Assembly: GCA_024644005.1 (NCBI GenBank) | Contig: JAHELU010000002.1 | Span: 1-36,089, forward strand | Source of the DNA: Acidimicrobiales bacterium | GTDB taxonomy: Bacteria; Actinomycetota; Acidimicrobiia; Acidimicrobiales; SZUA-35 | Reading direction: 5' to 3' | Length of the DNA stretch: 36,089 nt | Part shown: piece by piece, positions 603 to 9,885 of the stretch | How positions within the stretch are numbered: the first letter of the stretch is position 1 | How the letters are laid out: each line of letters begins with the position of its first letter | Translations under genes and position numbers: made by a program | The notes under the pieces: model-generated | Seen by the model: only the letters and a program-made list of their open reading frames with translations | What the model was told of the DNA's origin: nothing | Database searches by the model: none

Positions 603-756
603 GGCCCGGCGCAGCGGTGGGCAGGGGACCCGCTCCGGCGTGCCGTCCCGGCGTCGGTCAGTAAAAGTCCAAATGTACGGCTATTTCGATCGGAGGTCAA
701 GACGGCGGTCGACGGGGGTCGTTGACCCCGCCGGTCCGGAGGTCGATCATGGGGCC

Positions 757-3700
757 ATGTCCGACCAACTGCTCGTTCGTGAGTCGATCGAGCTGGTGTC
801 CCAATGGCTCGACCGCGGACCGGAGATCGAGACCGACGACGATCGCGCCACCACCGCCCCGCTCCAGGCCCTCATCGAGGATCCCGACGGGGTGGGCTTC
901 GCGATGCGCTTCATCGACCGGGTCATCCGACCGGAGGACGATCGCGTGGCGGCCGCCCAGCTGGCGTCGCTCGTCGGCGCAGGCGAGCTGCCGGGATTCC
1001 TGTCGGCGCTCGACCGGCTGCTGCTCCGGGCCGGCGCCCTGCTCGGGCCATCCCTCCCCAAGGTGGTGATGCCGCTGGCCCGGCGCCGGATGCGCCGGCT
1101 CGTCGGACACCTGGTGGTCGACAGCGAGCCGAAGCGGCTGGCGCAACACCTCCAGGCTTCGAGGGCCGACGGCTTCGCCCAGAACGTGAACCTGCTCGGC
1201 GAGGCGGTGATGGGCCGCAACGAAGCCGGGCGGCGACTGGCGGACACCTTGGCTCTGATCGACAACCCGGACATCGACTACGTGTCGGTCAAGCTCTCCT
1301 CGGTGGTGCCCCAGCTCAACCACTGGGACTGGGACGGCAGCCGGGCGAGGGTGGTGGCGCGGCTCACCGAGATCATGGATCGAGCGGCCGCCACCGGCAC
1401 CTTCGTCAACCTCGACATGGAGGAGTACCTCGACCTCGATCTCACGATCGCCGCCTTCATCGAGGTGCTCTCCCAGCCCGAGCGCGCACCGGTCGAGGCC
1501 GGCATCGTGCTCCAGGCGTACCTGCCGGATTCGTTCCTCGCCCTGCAGCACCTCACCGACTGGGCCACCGAGACCGACCACGAGATCAAGATCCGCCTGG
1601 TCAAGGGAGCCAACCTGGCGATGGAGAAGGTCGAGGCGGAGCTCCACGGATGGCCCCAGGCCCCGTACGAGACGAAGGCCGAGGTCGATGCCAACTACAA
1701 GCGCTGCCTCGACTGGGTGCTCACCCCGGAACGGACGGCGCGGATCCGCATCGGGGTGGGGAGTCACAACCTGTTCGACGTGGCCTGGGCGCACCTCCTC
1801 TCCGCCGAGCGGGGGGTGGCCGACCGGATCCAGTTCGAGATGCTGCAGGGCATGGCTCCCACCATGGCGAGGGTCGTGAGGGGGTCTTCCGACCGCAAGC
1901 CGCTCCTGCTCTACACCCCCATCGTGGCGAACGACCAGTTCGACGTCGCCATCGCCTACCTGTTCCGGCGACTGGAGGAGAACGCTGCGCCGGAGAACTT
2001 CATACGCTCGCTGTTCAGCATCCGCACCGACGCGTCGGCATTCGCCCACCACGCCGATGCCTTCGCCGACTCCGTCGCCAAGCGGTGGAGCATGGCCGAC
2101 CGGCCCCGGCGGACCCAGGTGAGACCCGCCGAGCGGGCTGCGGCCACCCTGGGGGCGCCGACGGACGACTTCGTCAACGAACCGGATTCCGACCCCTCCA
2201 TCGCCGCCAACCGCGAGTGGGCGGTGTCGGTCCTGACCACCGATCCCGGACCAGCCAACACCCCGCTCAGCACCACGACAGCCGCGGTCGATGCCGTCCT
2301 GGCCCGCTGTCGAGCCGCCGAGCCGTCGCCACCGGCAGAACGGGTCGATCTGCTGCGACGGGCCGCCGACGTGCTGGCCAGGCGGCGGGGAGAGCTGATC
2401 GCGGTGATGGCCCACGAGGCGGGCAAGACCTTCCAACAGGCCGACGCCGAGGTCTCCGAGGCCATCGACTTCGCCCGGTACTACAGCCATCGGATCGAGG
2501 CGCTCGACGACCCGATGGCCCGCTTCGAGCCACTCGGGACCGTGGCGGTCATCCCGCCGTGGAACTTCCCGGTGGCCATACCCTGCGGCGGTGCCCTCGC
2601 CGCGGTGGCGGCCGGCAATCAGGTCGTCCTCAAACCGGCACCGGAGACCCCGCGTTGCGGCGAGCTCCTGGTCGAGTGCCTCGCCGAGGCCGGGATCGAC
2701 GCCGTTCACTACCTGCGGACTCCGGACGACGAGGTCGGTCGTCACCTGGTCCGCACCGTCGACGGCGTCATACTGACCGGCTCGTTCGAGACGGCCCGGC
2801 GGTTCCGGTCCTGGCATCCGGGGCTGAAGCTCCTGGCCGAGACGAGCGGCAAGAACGCCATGGTCATCACACCCCGGGCCGACATCGATCTGGCGGTGAA
2901 GGACCTCGTGGCCTCCGCCTTCACCCATGCCGGTCAGAAGTGCTCTGCCGCCTCGCTGGCCATCTGCGTCGGCGACGTCTCCCGCTCCCCCCGCTTCCTC
3001 AGACAGCTGACCGATGCCGTGGAGGGCCTCAACACCGGACCGGCCGTCGCCATCGCCAGCGACGTCGGGCCGTTGATCGGGCCCCCGACGGAGAAGCTCG
3101 CGAGGGCGCTCCAGGAGCCGGACGCCCGGTGGCTCGTCGCCCCCCGCCGCCTGAGCGACGACGGCCACCTGTGGTCGCCAGGTGTCCGGTTCGTCGAGCC
3201 TGGCAGCTGGTTCCACCTCACCGAGTGCTTCGGCCCGGTGCTCGGCATCATGGCCGCCGACGATCTCGACCAGGCCATCGCCTTCCAGAACGCCACCGAC
3301 TTCGGCCTGACCGGGGGGATCCACTCGCTCGACCCCGCCGAGATCGAGCACTGGCTCGAGCGGGTGGAGGTCGGGAACGCCTACGTCAACAAGCCGACCA
3401 CCGGAGCGATCGTCGGCCGGCAGCCGTTCGGCGGGTGGAAGCGGTCATCGGTCGGACCGGGGGCCAAGGCCGGCGGCCCGAACTACGTCGACCAGCTCGG
3501 GACCTGGCATCCCACCGAGCCGGTCACCGCTGCCACCCTCGAGCAGGCCAGGGTCGACGACCGGCGGTGGTGGCGCGACGAGTACGGCACCGTCCGGGAT
3601 CCGAGCGGGCTGCGCTACGAAGCGAACGTCTTCCGGTACCGGTCGCGGGGTCGGATCGGCCTCAGGGTCGGTGTCGGGATCGACGAGGCCGAGGTCGAGC

Positions 3701-4020
3701 GGGTCCGTCACGCCGCATCGGTGGCCGGATGCCTGCTGATCGAGTCCCGGGCCGACTCCGAGCCCGACCGCCGGTATGCGCGCTCGATCCGATCGCTCGG
3801 CGTCGAGCGAATCCGCCACCTGGGCCCGGTGCCGGGTCTCGTTCGTACCGCGGCCGGCGATGCCAACGTGGACCTGGCCGACGATCCGGTGACCCTGTCG
3901 GGGCGGCTCGAGCTGCGGCACTACCTGCGGGAACAGGTGGTCAGCATGACCGGGCACCGCTTCGGCAATCTCCTGGCCGACCCCGTGACGGTGGCCGGCC
4001 TGGCGACGCCTGGCGCCTGA
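757..4020 (+). CDS. putA: bifunctional proline dehydrogenase / L-glutamate-gamma-semialdehyde dehydrogenase (PutA)
   Basis: 1087 aa. It oxidises proline to P5C (FAD-dependent, N-terminal half) and then glutamate semialdehyde to glutamate (NAD+-dependent ALDH half). The PRODH barrel shows RLVKGANLAMEKVEAEL near residue 279, GVGSHNLFDVAWAHLL near 335 and FEMLQGMAPTMARVV near 360. The ALDH part shows PPWNFPVAIPCGGALAAVAA near 600, the general-base Glu in LAETSGKN (about E695) and the catalytic Cys in GQKCSA (about C729). About 200 residues follow the catalytic ALDH core, as in longer PutA forms. There is no N-terminal ribbon-helix-helix repressor domain. The open frame extends upstream to 640, but ATG 757 (MSDQLLVRES) is preferred: GGAGG lies upstream and the extension is Arg-rich and unlike the family. 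It ends one base before the convergent gene at 4022. Family assignment is firm. Confidence 0.95.
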   Translation: MSDQLLVRESIELVSQWLDRGPEIETDDDRATTAPLQALIEDPDGVGFAMRFIDRVIRPEDDRVAAAQLASLVGAGELPGFLSALDRLLLRAGALLGPSLPKVVMPLARRRMRRLVGHLVVDSEPKRLAQHLQASRADGFAQNVNLLGEAVMGRNEAGRRLADTLALIDNPDIDYVSVKLSSVVPQLNHWDWDGSRARVVARLTEIMDRAAATGTFVNLDMEEYLDLDLTIAAFIEVLSQPERAPVEAGIVLQAYLPDSFLALQHLTDWATETDHEIKIRLVKGANLAMEKVEAELHGWPQAPYETKAEVDANYKRCLDWVLTPERTARIRIGVGSHNLFDVAWAHLLSAERGVADRIQFEMLQGMAPTMARVVRGSSDRKPLLLYTPIVANDQFDVAIAYLFRRLEENAAPENFIRSLFSIRTDASAFAHHADAFADSVAKRWSMADRPRRTQVRPAERAAATLGAPTDDFVNEPDSDPSIAANREWAVSVLTTDPGPANTPLSTTTAAVDAVLARCRAAEPSPPAERVDLLRRAADVLARRRGELIAVMAHEAGKTFQQADAEVSEAIDFARYYSHRIEALDDPMARFEPLGTVAVIPPWNFPVAIPCGGALAAVAAGNQVVLKPAPETPRCGELLVECLAEAGIDAVHYLRTPDDEVGRHLVRTVDGVILTGSFETARRFRSWHPGLKLLAETSGKNAMVITPRADIDLAVKDLVASAFTHAGQKCSAASLAICVGDVSRSPRFLRQLTDAVEGLNTGPAVAIASDVGPLIGPPTEKLARALQEPDARWLVAPRRLSDDGHLWSPGVRFVEPGSWFHLTECFGPVLGIMAADDLDQAIAFQNATDFGLTGGIHSLDPAEIEHWLERVEVGNAYVNKPTTGAIVGRQPFGGWKRSSVGPGAKAGGPNYVDQLGTWHPTEPVTAATLEQARVDDRRWWRDEYGTVRDPSGLRYEANVFRYRSRGRIGLRVGVGIDEAEVERVRHAASVAGCLLIESRADSEPDRRYARSIRSLGVERIRHLGPVPGLVRTAAGDANVDLADDPVTLSGRLELRHYLREQVVSMTGHRFGNLLADPVTVAGLATPGA

Positions 4021-4021
4021 A

Positions 4022-4576
4022 TCAGCCGGACGCAGCCCGCCTGACCGCGGCCACCAGGTCATCGACGGACGGCCGGTCGTCCGGCCCCTCCCCCCAGTGC
4101 CCCCACACCAGGATGCCGTCGGGGCCGATCACGAAGTCGCCCCCGAGCTGCAACGTGTCCTCGGTGGCGGGGCGGAGATCGCGGAGACGACCGCCGCGGA
4201 ACAGCGCCACGTAGCGCCCGATCGCCCGCCATCCGTAGACGCGGCGGACCGATCCCCGGCCGAGACCGAACGACCGGTACGCCGAGCGATCGGGATCGAG
4301 GAGGATGGTGAACGGTACGTCGTTACGTCGACGGTACGGATCGAGCTGCTCCTGCGACGTGAAGGTGACGAGCACCACCTCGGTGTCCGGACCGAGCTCT
4401 GCGAGCCGGTCGCCGACGGCGACGGCATGGGCCGCACAGGGCAGTCAATAGATGTGGCGGTGGAAGATCAGCACCACCGTCCGGCCCCGCATGTCGGCGA
4501 GTCGCCACAGGCCGCCGTCCGGATCGACGAGCGCCACGTCCGGCGCGGGACGTCCGAGCGGCGGGCGGCTCGTCAC
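4022..4576 (-). CDS. candidate selenoprotein: SelL/PRXL2-like thioredoxin-fold redox protein with UxxC site (in-frame UGA)
   Basis: From GTG 4576 the minus frame gives 184 aa if the TGA at 4447-4445 is read as an amino acid (codon 44). The protein would start MTSRPPLGRPAPDVALVDPD, a typical AhpC/TSA N-terminus, then read VVLIFHRHIY-U-LPC: beta strand followed by a UxxC redox motif (Sec44, Cys47). After the UGA the same frame continues with VVLVTFTSQEQLDPYR, ILLDPDRSAYRSFGLGRGS and QLGGDFVIGPDGILVW, all characteristic of peroxiredoxin-like AhpC/TSA (PRXL2/SelL-related) proteins, to TGA 4022. Homologs usually carry Cys at the UGA position. A SECIS-like hairpin lies just downstream of the UGA. 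The frame starts 22 nt after the DUF1508 stop, so the two are probably co-transcribed. The likely role is thiol/peroxide redox chemistry in the cytoplasm. Alternatives are a nonsense mutation or a base-call error (TGC/TGT to TGA). Confidence 0.8.
4405..4447 (-). promoter_or_regulatory. putative bacterial SECIS element with its UGA (gene at 4022-4576)
   Basis: The UGA is at 4447-4445. The hairpin is at 4426-4405: arms GTCGCC/GGCGAC (6 bp) close a GTC loop, and three more G-C pairs follow past a single bulged C. The first loop base is G and lies 28 nt after the UGA. These features match the general bacterial SECIS model (apical-loop G in first or second position, roughly 16-37 nt downstream). 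GC-rich coding DNA forms hairpins readily, so this supports rather than proves the call. Confidence 0.6.
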
Positions 4577-4598: not shown

Positions 4599-4787
4599 TC
4601 AGCCCGTCACCACGTTCACCGGGCCGTCGTAGGACCCGGCCAACAGCTTGGTGAGCGTCGAGGTGGCAGCTGCCTTGTTGCCGTAGCCCTGACCCCCGTC
4701 GGTGGCCACCACCTGACCGTTGGATGCCTTGACCCGAAACGCCCACTTGCCGTCCTTGCGCTTGTAGACCTCACCGGTTCCTGCCAT
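4599..4787 (-). CDS. DUF1508 (YegP-like) small protein
   Basis: 62 aa, a single DUF1508 repeat: GEVYKRKDGKWAFRVKASNG, then QVVATDGGQGYGNKAAATS. The family forms a small beta-beta-beta-alpha unit often found in tandem; here there is one copy. Its biochemical function is not known to me. ATG 4787 is preceded by AAAGGA about 8 nt upstream, a strong Shine-Dalgarno. It is followed after 22 nt by the GTG of the candidate selenoprotein, so they probably share a transcript. The 164-nt gap upstream (4788-4951) shows no gene or strong structure. Confidence 0.85.
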   Translation of the reverse strand: MAGTGEVYKRKDGKWAFRVKASNGQVVATDGGQGYGNKAAATSTLTKLLAGSYDGPVNVVTG

Positions 4788-4951: not shown

Positions 4952-5725
4952 CTATGCGGCGTGGGGCCGCAGCTCGCCCCGGGATCCGGTGGTCCAATCG
5001 CTCACGAACCGGAAGCGGTCACCGCGGATGATGGTGGTCCGCCACTCGATCGGGGTTCCGTCGCGGCTGCCGAGCCGCTCCAGGAAGAAGGCGGCATCGC
5101 CTTTGCGCAGATCGAGCAGGGCCCGATCGGCCGGGCTGGGGACGATCGGTGTCAGCCGCTCCCAGCCCTGGTTCGGGACGGGCCGGCCCAGCTTCGCCAG
5201 CTCGGCGTAGAGGGCGGTATGGCTCCAGTCGACCTCCAGCAGTGGCTCGGCGACGGTGAGCGGCAACCAGGCCCGGTCGACGGCGAGCGGTTGGCCCGCG
5301 GCCCGCCGGAGCCGAGCCAGCAGAACCAGTTCGGCCCCCTCGTCGAGATCCAGATGCGAGGCGGCGACGGTGTCCGTCACCACCTCGAGCTGCAGCACGT
5401 CGCTGGTCTGCTCGACCCCGGCCGACTCGACGGACTGGAACAGGCTGTAGAGCGTGCCGAGCGACTGCTCGAACTCGGCCCGGTTGACGACGGTGCCCCG
5501 GCCGCGCTCGCGCTTCAGGAGCCCGGTCTTGTTCAGGTGGCGCACCGCCTCCCGGACGGTGTGGCGGCTCACCCCGTAGGCCTCGGTCAGCTCGTGATCG
5601 GTGGGGAAGAACCCTTCGTCGAACTCGCCGGCCTCCAACCGGCGCCGGAGCTCGGCCTCCAACTGCGCCCACAGCGGCATCGGGCTGTCTCGGTCGAGCG
5701 GCATCGGCGACGACGATCGCGCCAT
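4952..5725 (-). CDS. GntR-family transcriptional regulator, HutC/FarR subfamily
   Basis: 257 aa. The N-terminal winged helix-turn-helix (about residues 17-85) shows PLWAQLEAELRRRLEAGEF, FPTDHELTEAYGVSRHTVRE and HLNKTGLLKRERGRGTVV. The C-terminal UTRA ligand-binding domain (about 95-245) shows LARLRRAAGQPLAVDRAWLP and FFLERLGSRDGTPIEWRTTI. HutC-type regulators sense small metabolites and usually repress nearby catabolic genes. It lies downstream of, and on the same strand as, the methylated-amine gene cluster, separated by a terminator-like hairpin at 5875-5914, so control of that cluster is plausible but only inferred. ATG 5725 has an AGGAC-type ribosome site about 9 nt upstream. Confidence 0.92.
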   Translation of the reverse strand: MARSSSPMPLDRDSPMPLWAQLEAELRRRLEAGEFDEGFFPTDHELTEAYGVSRHTVREAVRHLNKTGLLKRERGRGTVVNRAEFEQSLGTLYSLFQSVESAGVEQTSDVLQLEVVTDTVAASHLDLDEGAELVLLARLRRAAGQPLAVDRAWLPLTVAEPLLEVDWSHTALYAELAKLGRPVPNQGWERLTPIVPSPADRALLDLRKGDAAFFLERLGSRDGTPIEWRTTIIRGDRFRFVSDWTTGSRGELRPHAA

Positions 5726-5972: not shown

Positions 5973-7307
5973 TCAGCCGTTCACCGAGAAGCTGGAGCGC
6001 TCGTTGATGTCGCGGTTCCGGCTGAACGAGCCGAGGTCTATGGCCAGACCGGTGTAGCGGCCCTCGACGGTGAGCGGCGCTGCGTCGTGGTCGTGCCCTG
6101 CCTCGACGGCCTCGATCAGCTCGGCCATGCAGTGGGCGGCCACCCCGGCGTTCTTGTACTGGTTGCCGCTCGTGCCGATGGCGACGTAGAAGCCCGACAG
6201 ATCGGTCCGGTCGTAGATCGGGATCCAGTCGTCGGCGACGTCGTACAGGTCGACCACGCCCCGCCGGCGATTGGGGACGCCGAGGTCCGGCATCCGGCGC
6301 GCCAACCGCAGCACCTGGGCCTGCCACTGGTCCTCGGTGATCTCCCGATCGAAGTGGTCGGGATCGTCGACCCACTCCCGGGGATCGCACTCCGGGTCCT
6401 CCGAGCCGATCAGGATGTTGTCGCCGGCTTCTGGCCGGATGTAGATCCCGGTGTCGCCGTCCTGCAGGTGGCAACCGGTGGCCTCGTAGTCGACACCGGG
6501 TGGTGAGGCGACGTGGTGGACCTCGTGGCGCAACGCCCTGGTGGCGATCTTCATCGTGCCCTCGAGCCCGGCCATCCGATTGACGACGAAGCTGTGGGGC
6601 CCGGCGACGTTGACCACCACCGGCGCCGAGAGCACTTCGGGGCCATCCGGGCCGTCCACCGTCACCCCGATGACCCGACCGCCGTCGCGCTCGATCGCCG
6701 TGACCGCGGTGTTGAACCGGAACCGGCCGCCCACCGCCTCGGCCGCCCGCTGGAGGTTGTGGGCCGACAGCTGGGGATCGCTGATGTAACCCGAGTCGGC
6801 GGTCCAGACCGCCCCGAGCAGGCGCTCGGTGGGCTCGGCCCAGAACGACTCGTCGTCCGGCCGCTTCGGCGGGCCGAACACCGAAGGGTCGAAGGCCGGG
6901 AACCGGGCCACCAGCTCCTCGACCGACCAGTCCTCGAACGGGATGCCGAGCTCACCCAGCAGGGGGATGACCTTCTCGTGGTGGCCGCCCGGCTTCTTCA
7001 GCAGCGCGGTGCCGCACCGGATGAAGCGGGCCAGCCCCCGCTCGTCGACGTCGCCGCCGAGATGGTCCCGCCAGTTCGCCCAGTAGTGCTGGCCCTCCCA
7101 CGACATGGCCACCCCGTCGTAGGTCGAGTAGCTGAACCGGATGATCGCACAGCTGTTGCTGGTCGAGCCGTAGCCGGCGGCCGGCAGCTTGTCGATGTTG
7201 AGGGTTCGTCTGCCTCGCCGGGCCAGCTCGTAGCCCACCGCGGCGCCGATCACCCCGGCCCCGATGACGATGACGTCGTAGCGCTCGTTCTCCCGATCGG
7301 CTGCCAT
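5973..7307 (-). CDS. FAD-dependent amine oxidase/dehydrogenase, DAO family (sarcosine oxidase beta-like)
   Basis: 444 aa. The N-terminal Rossmann fold shows VIVIGAGVIGAAVGYELARRG, then GSTSNSCAIIRFSYS, typical of single-domain sarcosine/glycine/N-methyl amino acid oxidases. Near the C-terminus WIPIYDRTDLSGFYVAIGTS and NQYKNAGVAAHCMAELI match the second FAD-contact region of the DAO fold. It would oxidise a secondary or tertiary amine and release an aldehyde or a C1 unit; the substrate cannot be read from sequence. ATG 7307 has GGAG 6 nt upstream and is preferred to GTG 7319. It follows the larger flavoprotein gene by 22 nt, so both belong to one operon. Confidence 0.9.
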   Translation of the reverse strand: MAADRENERYDVIVIGAGVIGAAVGYELARRGRRTLNIDKLPAAGYGSTSNSCAIIRFSYSTYDGVAMSWEGQHYWANWRDHLGGDVDERGLARFIRCGTALLKKPGGHHEKVIPLLGELGIPFEDWSVEELVARFPAFDPSVFGPPKRPDDESFWAEPTERLLGAVWTADSGYISDPQLSAHNLQRAAEAVGGRFRFNTAVTAIERDGGRVIGVTVDGPDGPEVLSAPVVVNVAGPHSFVVNRMAGLEGTMKIATRALRHEVHHVASPPGVDYEATGCHLQDGDTGIYIRPEAGDNILIGSEDPECDPREWVDDPDHFDREITEDQWQAQVLRLARRMPDLGVPNRRRGVVDLYDVADDWIPIYDRTDLSGFYVAIGTSGNQYKNAGVAAHCMAELIEAVEAGHDHDAAPLTVEGRYTGLAIDLGSFSRNRDINERSSFSVNG

Positions 7308-7329
7308 GCCCAGCTCCACTGTTCGACCT

Positions 7330-9885
7330 TCAGCTCCTCATGCGCTCGCCGTGACGATCCCACAGGCACCCATCGACCGGCGAGGCCGGGCGGCGGACCC
7401 CGACCACCTCGATCTCGAAGCCGTCCGACGCCCCCTCGAGGGCGGCGGGCACGTAGCCGAGGGCCACCGACTCCTCGCTGTGGTGGGCGTAGCCACCCGA
7501 GGTGACCCACCCGACCACCTCACCGTCGTGCCAGATCGGCTCGTCGCCGATGACATCACAGGCCGACTCGCCGCCCGAGTGGTCGCCGGAGGGATCGCCG
7601 GTGTCGACGGTCCAGGTCAGCAGCCGCCGTCGCGGACCGGCCACCTCGGCCAGGGCGTCACGGCCGATGAAGTCCTTGTCGAGCCGGACGAAACGATCGA
7701 GCCCTGCCTCGAACGGGTCGTAGATGGGACGGAACTCCCTGGCCCAGGACCCGAAGCTCTTGTCGAGCCGGAGGCTGTCGAGGGCATCGAGGCCGAACAA
7801 CCCGAGCCCGAGGTCACCGCCCTCGGCCTGCAGCAGGTCGAACACCGCCCGCTGGGCCGAGGACGGCATCCAGAACTCGTAGCCGAGGTCGCCCGTGTAG
7901 GTCACCCGACCACACCAGACCGACAGCGGGCCGAGATCCAGTTCCCGGAAGTCCATGAACCGGAACCCGTCGGCCGACACGTCCGATCCGGTGAGACGGG
8001 ACAGCAGCTCCCGGGACCGGGGGCCGGCGATCGACAGGCCGCACAGCTCCCAACCCAGCGTCCGGTAGACGACGGCGCCGCCGGCCGCCGACGGCTCGGC
8101 CTCCAGCTGCTGGTCGAACCATCGCTCGTAGTATCGCTCGGCGATGCCGGAGCCGAAGACCACGAACCGCTCTCCGTCGCCGAGGTTCTGGGTGGCGCCG
8201 CCGGTTCTGGTGGTGATCGGCCCCTCGGCGGTCCCCGGGGTCGAGCCGAGGCAGGCCACGGTCAGGTCCCCGATCAGCTTGCCGTTGTGGTTGGTCATCG
8301 GGGCCAGCGCCATGCGGCCCGGCCTCGGCACGCGATTGGTGAAGAGCCGATCGAGGAAGGCCCTGGCGCCGGGACCGCTGAACAAGAACTTGGAGAACCC
8401 GGTGGTCTCCATCATCCCGACGCCGGCCCTGACCGCCCGCACCTCCTCTGCGACCGGCTCCCAGGCGTTCGATCGACCGAACGTCACGTCCTCGACCGGC
8501 TCGAGGCCCGGACGCTGGAACCATCGGGCCGACTCGAGCCCGAAGGCGTCGCCCCACACGGCGTTCTCGGCCACCAGCCGGTCGTAGATCGGCGAGGTGT
8601 GCAGTGGGCGGCCCGCAGGCAACACCTCGTTCGGGAACTGGATCCTGAACCGTCGGGAGTAGTTCTCCCGGACCTTGGCACTGGTGTAGCCGAGGGTGGC
8701 GTACTCGCCGAAGCGGGCCACGTCCATGCCCCACACGTCGAAGCCGGGGTCGCCGTCGGTGATCCAGTTGGCGAGGGCCAGCCCGACCCCGCCCCCCTGG
8801 GACAGGCCGGCCATGACCGCACAGGCGCTCCAGAACCCGGGCAACCCCCGAATCGGGCCGAGCAACGGGTTACCGTCGGGGGCGAACGTGAACGGACCGT
8901 TGATGACCTGCTTGATGCCGGCCTCGGCGAAGATCGGGAAGTGCTTGAAGCCGACGTCGAGCGATTCGGCGATCCGATCGAGGTCGGGGCTCAGCAGCCG
9001 CATGCCGAAGTCCCACGGCGTCTGCTCCGGGGACCAGGGCTTGCCGTTCCGCTCGTAGGTGCCGAGCAGCAGGCCGCCGGCCTCCTGCCGCATGTAGATC
9101 TCACCCCCGAAGTCGATGCAGTGGAGCACCTCGCCGTGCTCGGCGTTGTAGGCCGCGATCTCCGGGATGTCCTCGGTCAGGAGGTACATGTGCTCCATGG
9201 CCAGCAGCGGCAGCTCCAGGCCCACCATCCGCCCGACCTCGCGGGCCCAGAGACCACCGGCGTTGACGACGTGCTCGCAGTGGATCGTGCCAGCGGCCTC
9301 CCCTGAGGGGGTGTCGTACACGTCGACGAGCCAGCCGCCCTCTGCGGAGCGGGTGATGGCCCTGGCCCAAGTGTTGCGGTGGACGACCGCCCCCCGGTTC
9401 TTGGCGCACTGGGCGTAGGCGTGGGTCACCCCCGACGGGTCGACGTGCCCCTCGTGGCGGTCGTACATGGCGCCGACGAAGTACTGCTCCTCCAGCAACG
9501 GCATCAGCCGCTTGGCCTCCGCCACCGAGATGAGCTCGGTCTCCATGCCGAGGTACCGGCCCCGGGCGTGGGCCATGCGGAGCCAGTCCATCCGCTCGGC
9601 GGTGTCGGCCAGCATCACGCCGCCGGTCAGGTGGATACCGCAGTCCCGGCCGGACTCCTGCTCGATCTCCCGGTACAGCTCGATCGTGTACTGCTGGAGC
9701 TTGGCCACGTTCGGGTCGCCGTTGAGGGTGTGCATCCCGCCGGCAGAGTGCCAGGTCGACCCGGCGGTCAGCTCGGTCCGCTCGAGGAGCACGACATCGG
9801 TCCAGCCGTTCTTGGTCAGGTGGTACAGCACGCTCGTGCCGACGACACCGCCACCGACCACCACCACCTGCGTCGTCGTCTTCAT
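7330..9885 (-). CDS. dimethylglycine/sarcosine dehydrogenase-type flavoprotein with C-terminal GcvT domains
   Basis: 851 aa. The N-terminal DAO domain (about residues 1-385) has VVVVGGGVVGTSVLYHLTKNG and GSTWHSAGGM; His46 sits where DMGDH/SARDH bind FAD covalently. The C-terminal half (about 430-850) is a tetrahydrofolate-binding GcvT-like unit, with AVRAGVGMMETTGFSKFLFS, MDFRELDLGPLSVWCGRVTY, TGDLGYEFWMPSSAQRAVF and FGLDALDSLRLDKSFGSWAR. Family members oxidatively demethylate N-methyl amino acids and pass the C1 unit to tetrahydrofolate. It starts 39 nt after the MttB-family stop and ends 22 nt before the smaller oxidase. Substrate (dimethylglycine, sarcosine, N-methylproline or other) is unresolved. 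Confidence 0.92.
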   Translation of the reverse strand: MKTTTQVVVVGGGVVGTSVLYHLTKNGWTDVVLLERTELTAGSTWHSAGGMHTLNGDPNVAKLQQYTIELYREIEQESGRDCGIHLTGGVMLADTAERMDWLRMAHARGRYLGMETELISVAEAKRLMPLLEEQYFVGAMYDRHEGHVDPSGVTHAYAQCAKNRGAVVHRNTWARAITRSAEGGWLVDVYDTPSGEAAGTIHCEHVVNAGGLWAREVGRMVGLELPLLAMEHMYLLTEDIPEIAAYNAEHGEVLHCIDFGGEIYMRQEAGGLLLGTYERNGKPWSPEQTPWDFGMRLLSPDLDRIAESLDVGFKHFPIFAEAGIKQVINGPFTFAPDGNPLLGPIRGLPGFWSACAVMAGLSQGGGVGLALANWITDGDPGFDVWGMDVARFGEYATLGYTSAKVRENYSRRFRIQFPNEVLPAGRPLHTSPIYDRLVAENAVWGDAFGLESARWFQRPGLEPVEDVTFGRSNAWEPVAEEVRAVRAGVGMMETTGFSKFLFSGPGARAFLDRLFTNRVPRPGRMALAPMTNHNGKLIGDLTVACLGSTPGTAEGPITTRTGGATQNLGDGERFVVFGSGIAERYYERWFDQQLEAEPSAAGGAVVYRTLGWELCGLSIAGPRSRELLSRLTGSDVSADGFRFMDFRELDLGPLSVWCGRVTYTGDLGYEFWMPSSAQRAVFDLLQAEGGDLGLGLFGLDALDSLRLDKSFGSWAREFRPIYDPFEAGLDRFVRLDKDFIGRDALAEVAGPRRRLLTWTVDTGDPSGDHSGGESACDVIGDEPIWHDGEVVGWVTSGGYAHHSEESVALGYVPAALEGASDGFEIEVVGVRRPASPVDGCLWDRHGERMRS

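Follow-up and report, generated by a model that had tools for sequence, protein, structure and literature searches.

In contig JAHELU010000002.1 of an Acidimicrobiales bacterium (assembly GCA_024644005.1), a minus-strand reading frame of the AhpC/TSA fold is interrupted by a TGA at its putative redox-active position. Does this triplet specify selenocysteine (Sec) within a single gene, or does it mark a gene that is broken or simply shorter? The stretch of 36,089 nucleotides analyzed here is referred to as the window. The original prediction held that the frame continues through the TGA and encodes a UxxC redox selenoprotein that is hidden from ordinary gene calling. The relevant features are as follows:

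4022-4576, minus strand: coding sequence of the predicted UxxC redox selenoprotein, 184 residues, supported by profile matches; putative GTG start, stop TGA at 4024-4022
4445-4447, minus strand: in-frame TGA, residue 44, predicted Sec on the basis of conservation and machinery
4436-4438, minus strand: codon of C47, which pairs with U44 in UxxC and does not vary across a 28-row alignment
4022-4378, minus strand: 118-residue open reading frame left by the standard code, starting downstream of the active site (ORF list)

A single reading frame across the in-frame TGA

When the TGA at 4447-4445 is read as a residue, positions 4576-4025 of the minus strand encode a single 184-residue protein of the AhpC/TSA fold, in which residue 44 has the context HRHIY-U-LPC. 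All Pfam matches lie above their cut-offs, with AhpC-TSA (PF00578) at 61.6 bits (cut-off 26) placing the protein in the AhpC/TSA superfamily, followed by AhpC-TSA_2 at 46.6 and Redoxin at 35.3 bits. The NCBIfam model NF040769 (SelL_rel_redox) was matched over nearly its whole length, residues 10-177 covering model positions 2-172 of 173, with a score of 133 bits against a cut-off of 120 when the UGA was read as Cys; nothing that was tested sets the protein apart from this model. A six-frame search of the genome with the same model returned the gene with 124.2 bits. These matches confirm the readthrough frame within 4576-4022. The label SelL/PRXL2-like held in part: AhpC-TSA_2 does match, but PRXL2 is only partly apt and SelL_rel_redox fits best.

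Family signatures had been claimed on both sides of the UGA. This was borne out when the two halves were searched separately with a profile built from 27 relatives and free of the window protein (Z 1000, filters off): residues 1-43 alone gave an E value of 2.7e-10 and residues 45-184 alone one of 4.1e-55. Since the halves before and after the TGA each match the family profile, one gene spans the TGA. An alignment of 28 rows was prepared from the window protein and 27 of the 29 other relatives, excluding L027 and L046 (motif type LRHFGU); R40, H41, H50, D140 and QLGG at 143-146 are invariant in it.

As foreseen, gene calling by the standard code retains only a piece past the active site: when open reading frames are listed down to a length of 80 residues, this frame contributes just the 118-residue one at 4378-4022. 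A Sec codon would account for this splitting of the gene in two. The gene terminates with TGA (4024-4022), and the triplet therefore doubles as a stop codon here.

Conservation of the TGA and the selenocysteine machinery

Relatives were collected with hmmsearch (E <= 1e-8), and the fetched loci were aligned. The 141 rows have TGA (137) or TGC (4) at the residue-44 site. Once a double locus and identical 75-mers had been discarded, 118 relatives were left, 114 with TGA and four with TGC (Cys). The family alignment thus contains the Sec or Cys that was asked for at residue 44, and the in-frame UGA stands where homologs have Sec or Cys, as in bacterial selenoproteins. The TGA-bearing relatives comprise 72 of the (H/T)RHxxU(L/V)PC type and 42 of other types. 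Named records among the best 80 of 109 relatives belong mainly to Acidimicrobiales and other Actinomycetota, with further members from Planctomycetota, Acidobacteria, Myxococcota and Chloroflexi. As Sec forms outnumber Cys forms among the fetched members, this branch lends itself to studying why selenium has been retained.

Genome surveys caution against too absolute a view, since they include members without the in-frame stop. Across 119 genomes, SelL_rel_redox matches of at least 75 bits contain one TGA in 53 of 55 cases and no in-frame stop in the other two, and all 13 matches above the 120-bit cut-off contain one TGA. In a phylum sample of 396 genomes, the in-frame stop is absent from 6 of the 40 matches listed, four of these six lying outside the set of 118 relatives. 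Two loci differ in arrangement: a Myxococcales relative (L120) has a UxxU motif, LRHLRULAU, resembling the SelL or ULPU type, and another locus (L155) carries two nearby gene copies on the same strand, each with a TGA.

A genome lacking selA, selB, selC and selD would have been incompatible with a Sec codon. This situation was excluded, as the genome of the window (4.46 Mb in 314 contigs, 83.09% complete) contains all four: selA scored 408.1 bits (cut-off 267.9), selB 274.9 (cut-off 242.25), selD 364.7 (cut-off 125) and tRNA-Sec 66.4 (cut-off 47), the last also being called as tRNA-SeC by ARAGORN. The selA and selB genes adjoin each other on contig 286, while selD, on contig 69, has its own in-frame TGA at the active site (G-U-A-C-K). 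Among 14 control genomes, the cut-offs were passed by tRNA-Sec in five, by selB in two, by selD in two and by selA in one.

Thirteen AhpC-TSA matches were found in the genome, and six of them hold a TGA, namely the window gene and five others (L161, L162, L167, L168 and L169; motifs TPGU, TSGU, DWUPFC, PYUGC and PWUTSC). Together with selD, these add up to seven likely selenoproteins in the families searched. The genome therefore probably has several selenoproteins and very likely employs Sec in several redox proteins.

To relate the gene to the machinery, selA was scored in 119 genomes of the same order, the window's own included, in 78 of which it lies above its cut-off. It was scored as present in 46 of the 48 genomes with a strong TGA-bearing match versus 37 of the 71 others (Fisher p 1.2e-7), where the limit for a strong match, about 75 bits, was chosen after viewing the table and the 83 positives include five below the selA cut-off. 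The exceptions, in which the selA search was negative despite a strong match of this kind, are G055 (96% complete) and G100 (78%), both of which are in many contigs; the relative in the 96% complete genome is L017.

The hairpin downstream of the TGA and other readings of the triplet

A hairpin with a loop G 28 nt after the UGA had been proposed as a bacterial SECIS element:

4405-4426, minus strand: predicted SECIS hairpin of bacterial type, spanning nt 22-43 where the T of the TGA is nt 1, supported by family-level tests

The minimum free energy fold has the loop GTC (nt 31-33), closed by C30-G34, and one bulged nucleotide (39), so that the proposed G is nt 31. The rules given in PMC13188914 place the loop 16-37 nt after the UGA, require G as one of its first two nucleotides and set the free energy at -7.5 kcal/mol or lower; the window hairpin has an energy of -14.8 kcal/mol and a loop that starts with G, 27 nt past the UGA. 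Taken alone, this hairpin stands out only slightly (equal stability was seen in 11 of 200 synonymous recodings, z -1.65), and the support for it comes from the family.

RNAalifold predicted no pairs and hence no consensus structure for the alignment of 72 relatives, perhaps because the position of the bulge shifts between sequences, and synonymous recoding and pair counting were therefore used instead. Nucleotides 21-46 of the 72 relatives are more stable than their synonymous recodings (mean z -1.07, median -1.09, uncorrected for relatedness). Among 19 control segments, the overlapping one (labelled 14-40) gave -0.88, while the 18 downstream ones (labelled 26 and beyond) ranged from -0.28 to +0.42, with 40 recodings per sequence compared to 200 for the tested segment. 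Synonymous homozygosity at codons 8-11 (nt 25-36) reaches 2.05-3.20 times expectation, likewise uncorrected for relatedness, versus ratios of 0.74-1.80 at the remaining 20 of the 24 codons examined, and G31-U32 is present in 64 of the 72 sequences.

Pair counting, with shuffles that ignore relatedness, yielded 46 cells changed on both sides (shuffles, 15.3), and the counted structure has 66.5% of its cells paired (shuffles, 57.0), neither value being reached in 500 shuffles. At least as many pairs with changes on both sides, however, arose in 36 of 500 shuffles, and at least as many pair types in 33. Sliding the structure by -1 gave almost equal covariation (0.192 versus 0.197), and the bulged base in the best fold of the window differs from that in the counted structure. 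The proposed SECIS element is thus well supported by stability, synonymous conservation and pair changes at the level of the family, RNAalifold being the exception, and the exact pairing is less so.

With these results, other explanations of the TGA can be weighed. Since the assembly is a draft, one might suspect a broken gene for a Cys-type redoxin, its TGA being due to a sequencing error or to a nonsense mutation of recent date. The relatives, which were drawn from many assemblies and include the named strain Ilumatobacter nonamiensis YM16-303, have TGA at the same codon in 114 of 118 distinct cases, which excludes a read error as a general cause; the frame downstream of the TGA moreover remains under protein constraint, and we consider a broken gene extremely improbable. 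Just as improbable is the production of only the 118-residue piece as a non-catalytic protein: the GTG at 4378 and the open frame behind it do exist, but residues 1-43 and the HRHxxULPC motif are conserved and lie entirely outside that piece.

Alternatively, a near-cognate or altered tRNA could decode the UGA as Trp or Cys. This reading draws on the fact that Sec at residue 44 is a prediction from sequence. Against it stand the tRNA-Sec, selA, selB and selD of the genome, the use of TGA as terminator of the very same gene and the constraint on the hairpin region; all four fetched relatives without TGA have TGC and none has TGG. Decoding as Trp or Cys is accordingly very unlikely. Computation has established the reading frame, the family membership, the conservation of the UGA, the presence of the machinery genes and the constraint on the hairpin region. 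We are highly confident that the gene encodes a peroxiredoxin/thioredoxin-fold oxidoreductase with a reactive Sec, in which insertion at position 44 would be directed by SelB and the hairpin, U44 would attack and C47 would resolve.

Active site, known relatives and genomic neighborhood

The AlphaFold2 model of the protein, which is a confident one (pLDDT 94.1, pTM 0.90), has a helix at residues 45-56 that starts directly after U44. Its best Foldseek matches in the PDB are peroxiredoxins, with Bcp4 (3hjp) at the top (TM 0.76/0.88), and ResA is found within the top 50. Canonical peroxiredoxins (PrxQ/Bcp, AhpE) share this fold and have the motif PxxxTxxC, whereas the window protein reads R40-xxx-U44-xx-C47. 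In a profile alignment to the peroxiredoxin 2ywn, U44 falls on the Thr three residues before the Cys, and this Cys, which we take to be the peroxidatic one, pairs with C47. The CxPC pair of the thiol-disulfide oxidoreductase ResA aligns with U44 and C47, the window protein having Sec in place of the first active-site Cys. In thioredoxins and glutathione peroxidases, the attacking residue is located at the corresponding position, and the alignments to the first Cys of ResA and the Thr of 2ywn thus put U44 at the attacking position of these enzymes. Eukaryotic SelL has a UxxU motif, while the window protein has UxxC.

A catalytic route can be proposed from these positions. SelB carrying Sec-tRNA would bind the hairpin directly after the UGA, allowing the ribosome to insert Sec at position 44. 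Placed just before the first active-site helix, U44 would attack a peroxide or a disulfide, either of which may be the substrate; C47 would then resolve it as a selenenylsulfide, to be reduced by a thiol reductant or thiol system.

Proteins of this kind are already known, as Prx-like UxxC selenoproteins are in print and a public family model fits. Prx-like thiol:disulfide oxidoreductase selenoproteins (PF00578, UxxC or UxxU) appear in Table 1 of PMC13188914 and in PMC9312934, and Prx-like 1-3 in Table 2 of PMC2398784, so that Prx-like UxxC selenoproteins had been published by 2008; the AhpC-TSA domain and the UxxC motif are common to them and the window protein. By published counts, Prx-like 1 in that table has 225 Sec versus 2,740 Cys forms, whereas the relatives fetched here are dominated by Sec. 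A ULPU-containing selenoprotein occupies one table line in PMC5029168; judged by the motif name only, it shares U-L-P, and its second selenium position is Cys in the window protein. The main text of PMC13188914 does not name NF040769, and searches for 'SelL-related' and for Ilumatobacter with selenoprotein returned no papers. We tentatively raise the rather unlikely possibility that the HRHxxULPC branch represents an almost exclusively Sec-based enzyme family, found in Acidimicrobiia and a small number of further lineages and not separated in the 2026 prokaryotic selenoprotein catalogue, in which U44 at the thioredoxin/glutathione peroxidase position and C47 at the peroxiredoxin position would support a peroxidase or reductase mechanism unlike both.

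Clustering of neighboring stop-to-stop frames at 117 loci did not bring out a strong partner. With 55 loci, the largest cluster runs opposite to the gene and resembles an antisense frame; two others, each of 12 loci, lie downstream, mostly or wholly on the same strand as the gene. Upstream of the selenoprotein gene, a DUF1508 gene of 62 residues (4602-4787, minus strand) ends 22 nt before the GTG. It was considered as an operon partner and rejected: among 140 loci, 136 of them with at least 400 nt upstream, it stands beside the gene only at the window's own locus, which is present twice. Within the window, Rfam gave no match at gathering thresholds and ARAGORN no tRNA. Convergent with the selenoprotein gene, a plus-strand frame at 640-4020 combines proline dehydrogenase and aldehyde dehydrogenase domains. 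A GntR/UTRA regulator (4952-5725, minus strand) adjoins two FAD-dependent oxidoreductases at 5973-9885 on the same strand, one of which has glycine-cleavage T domains.
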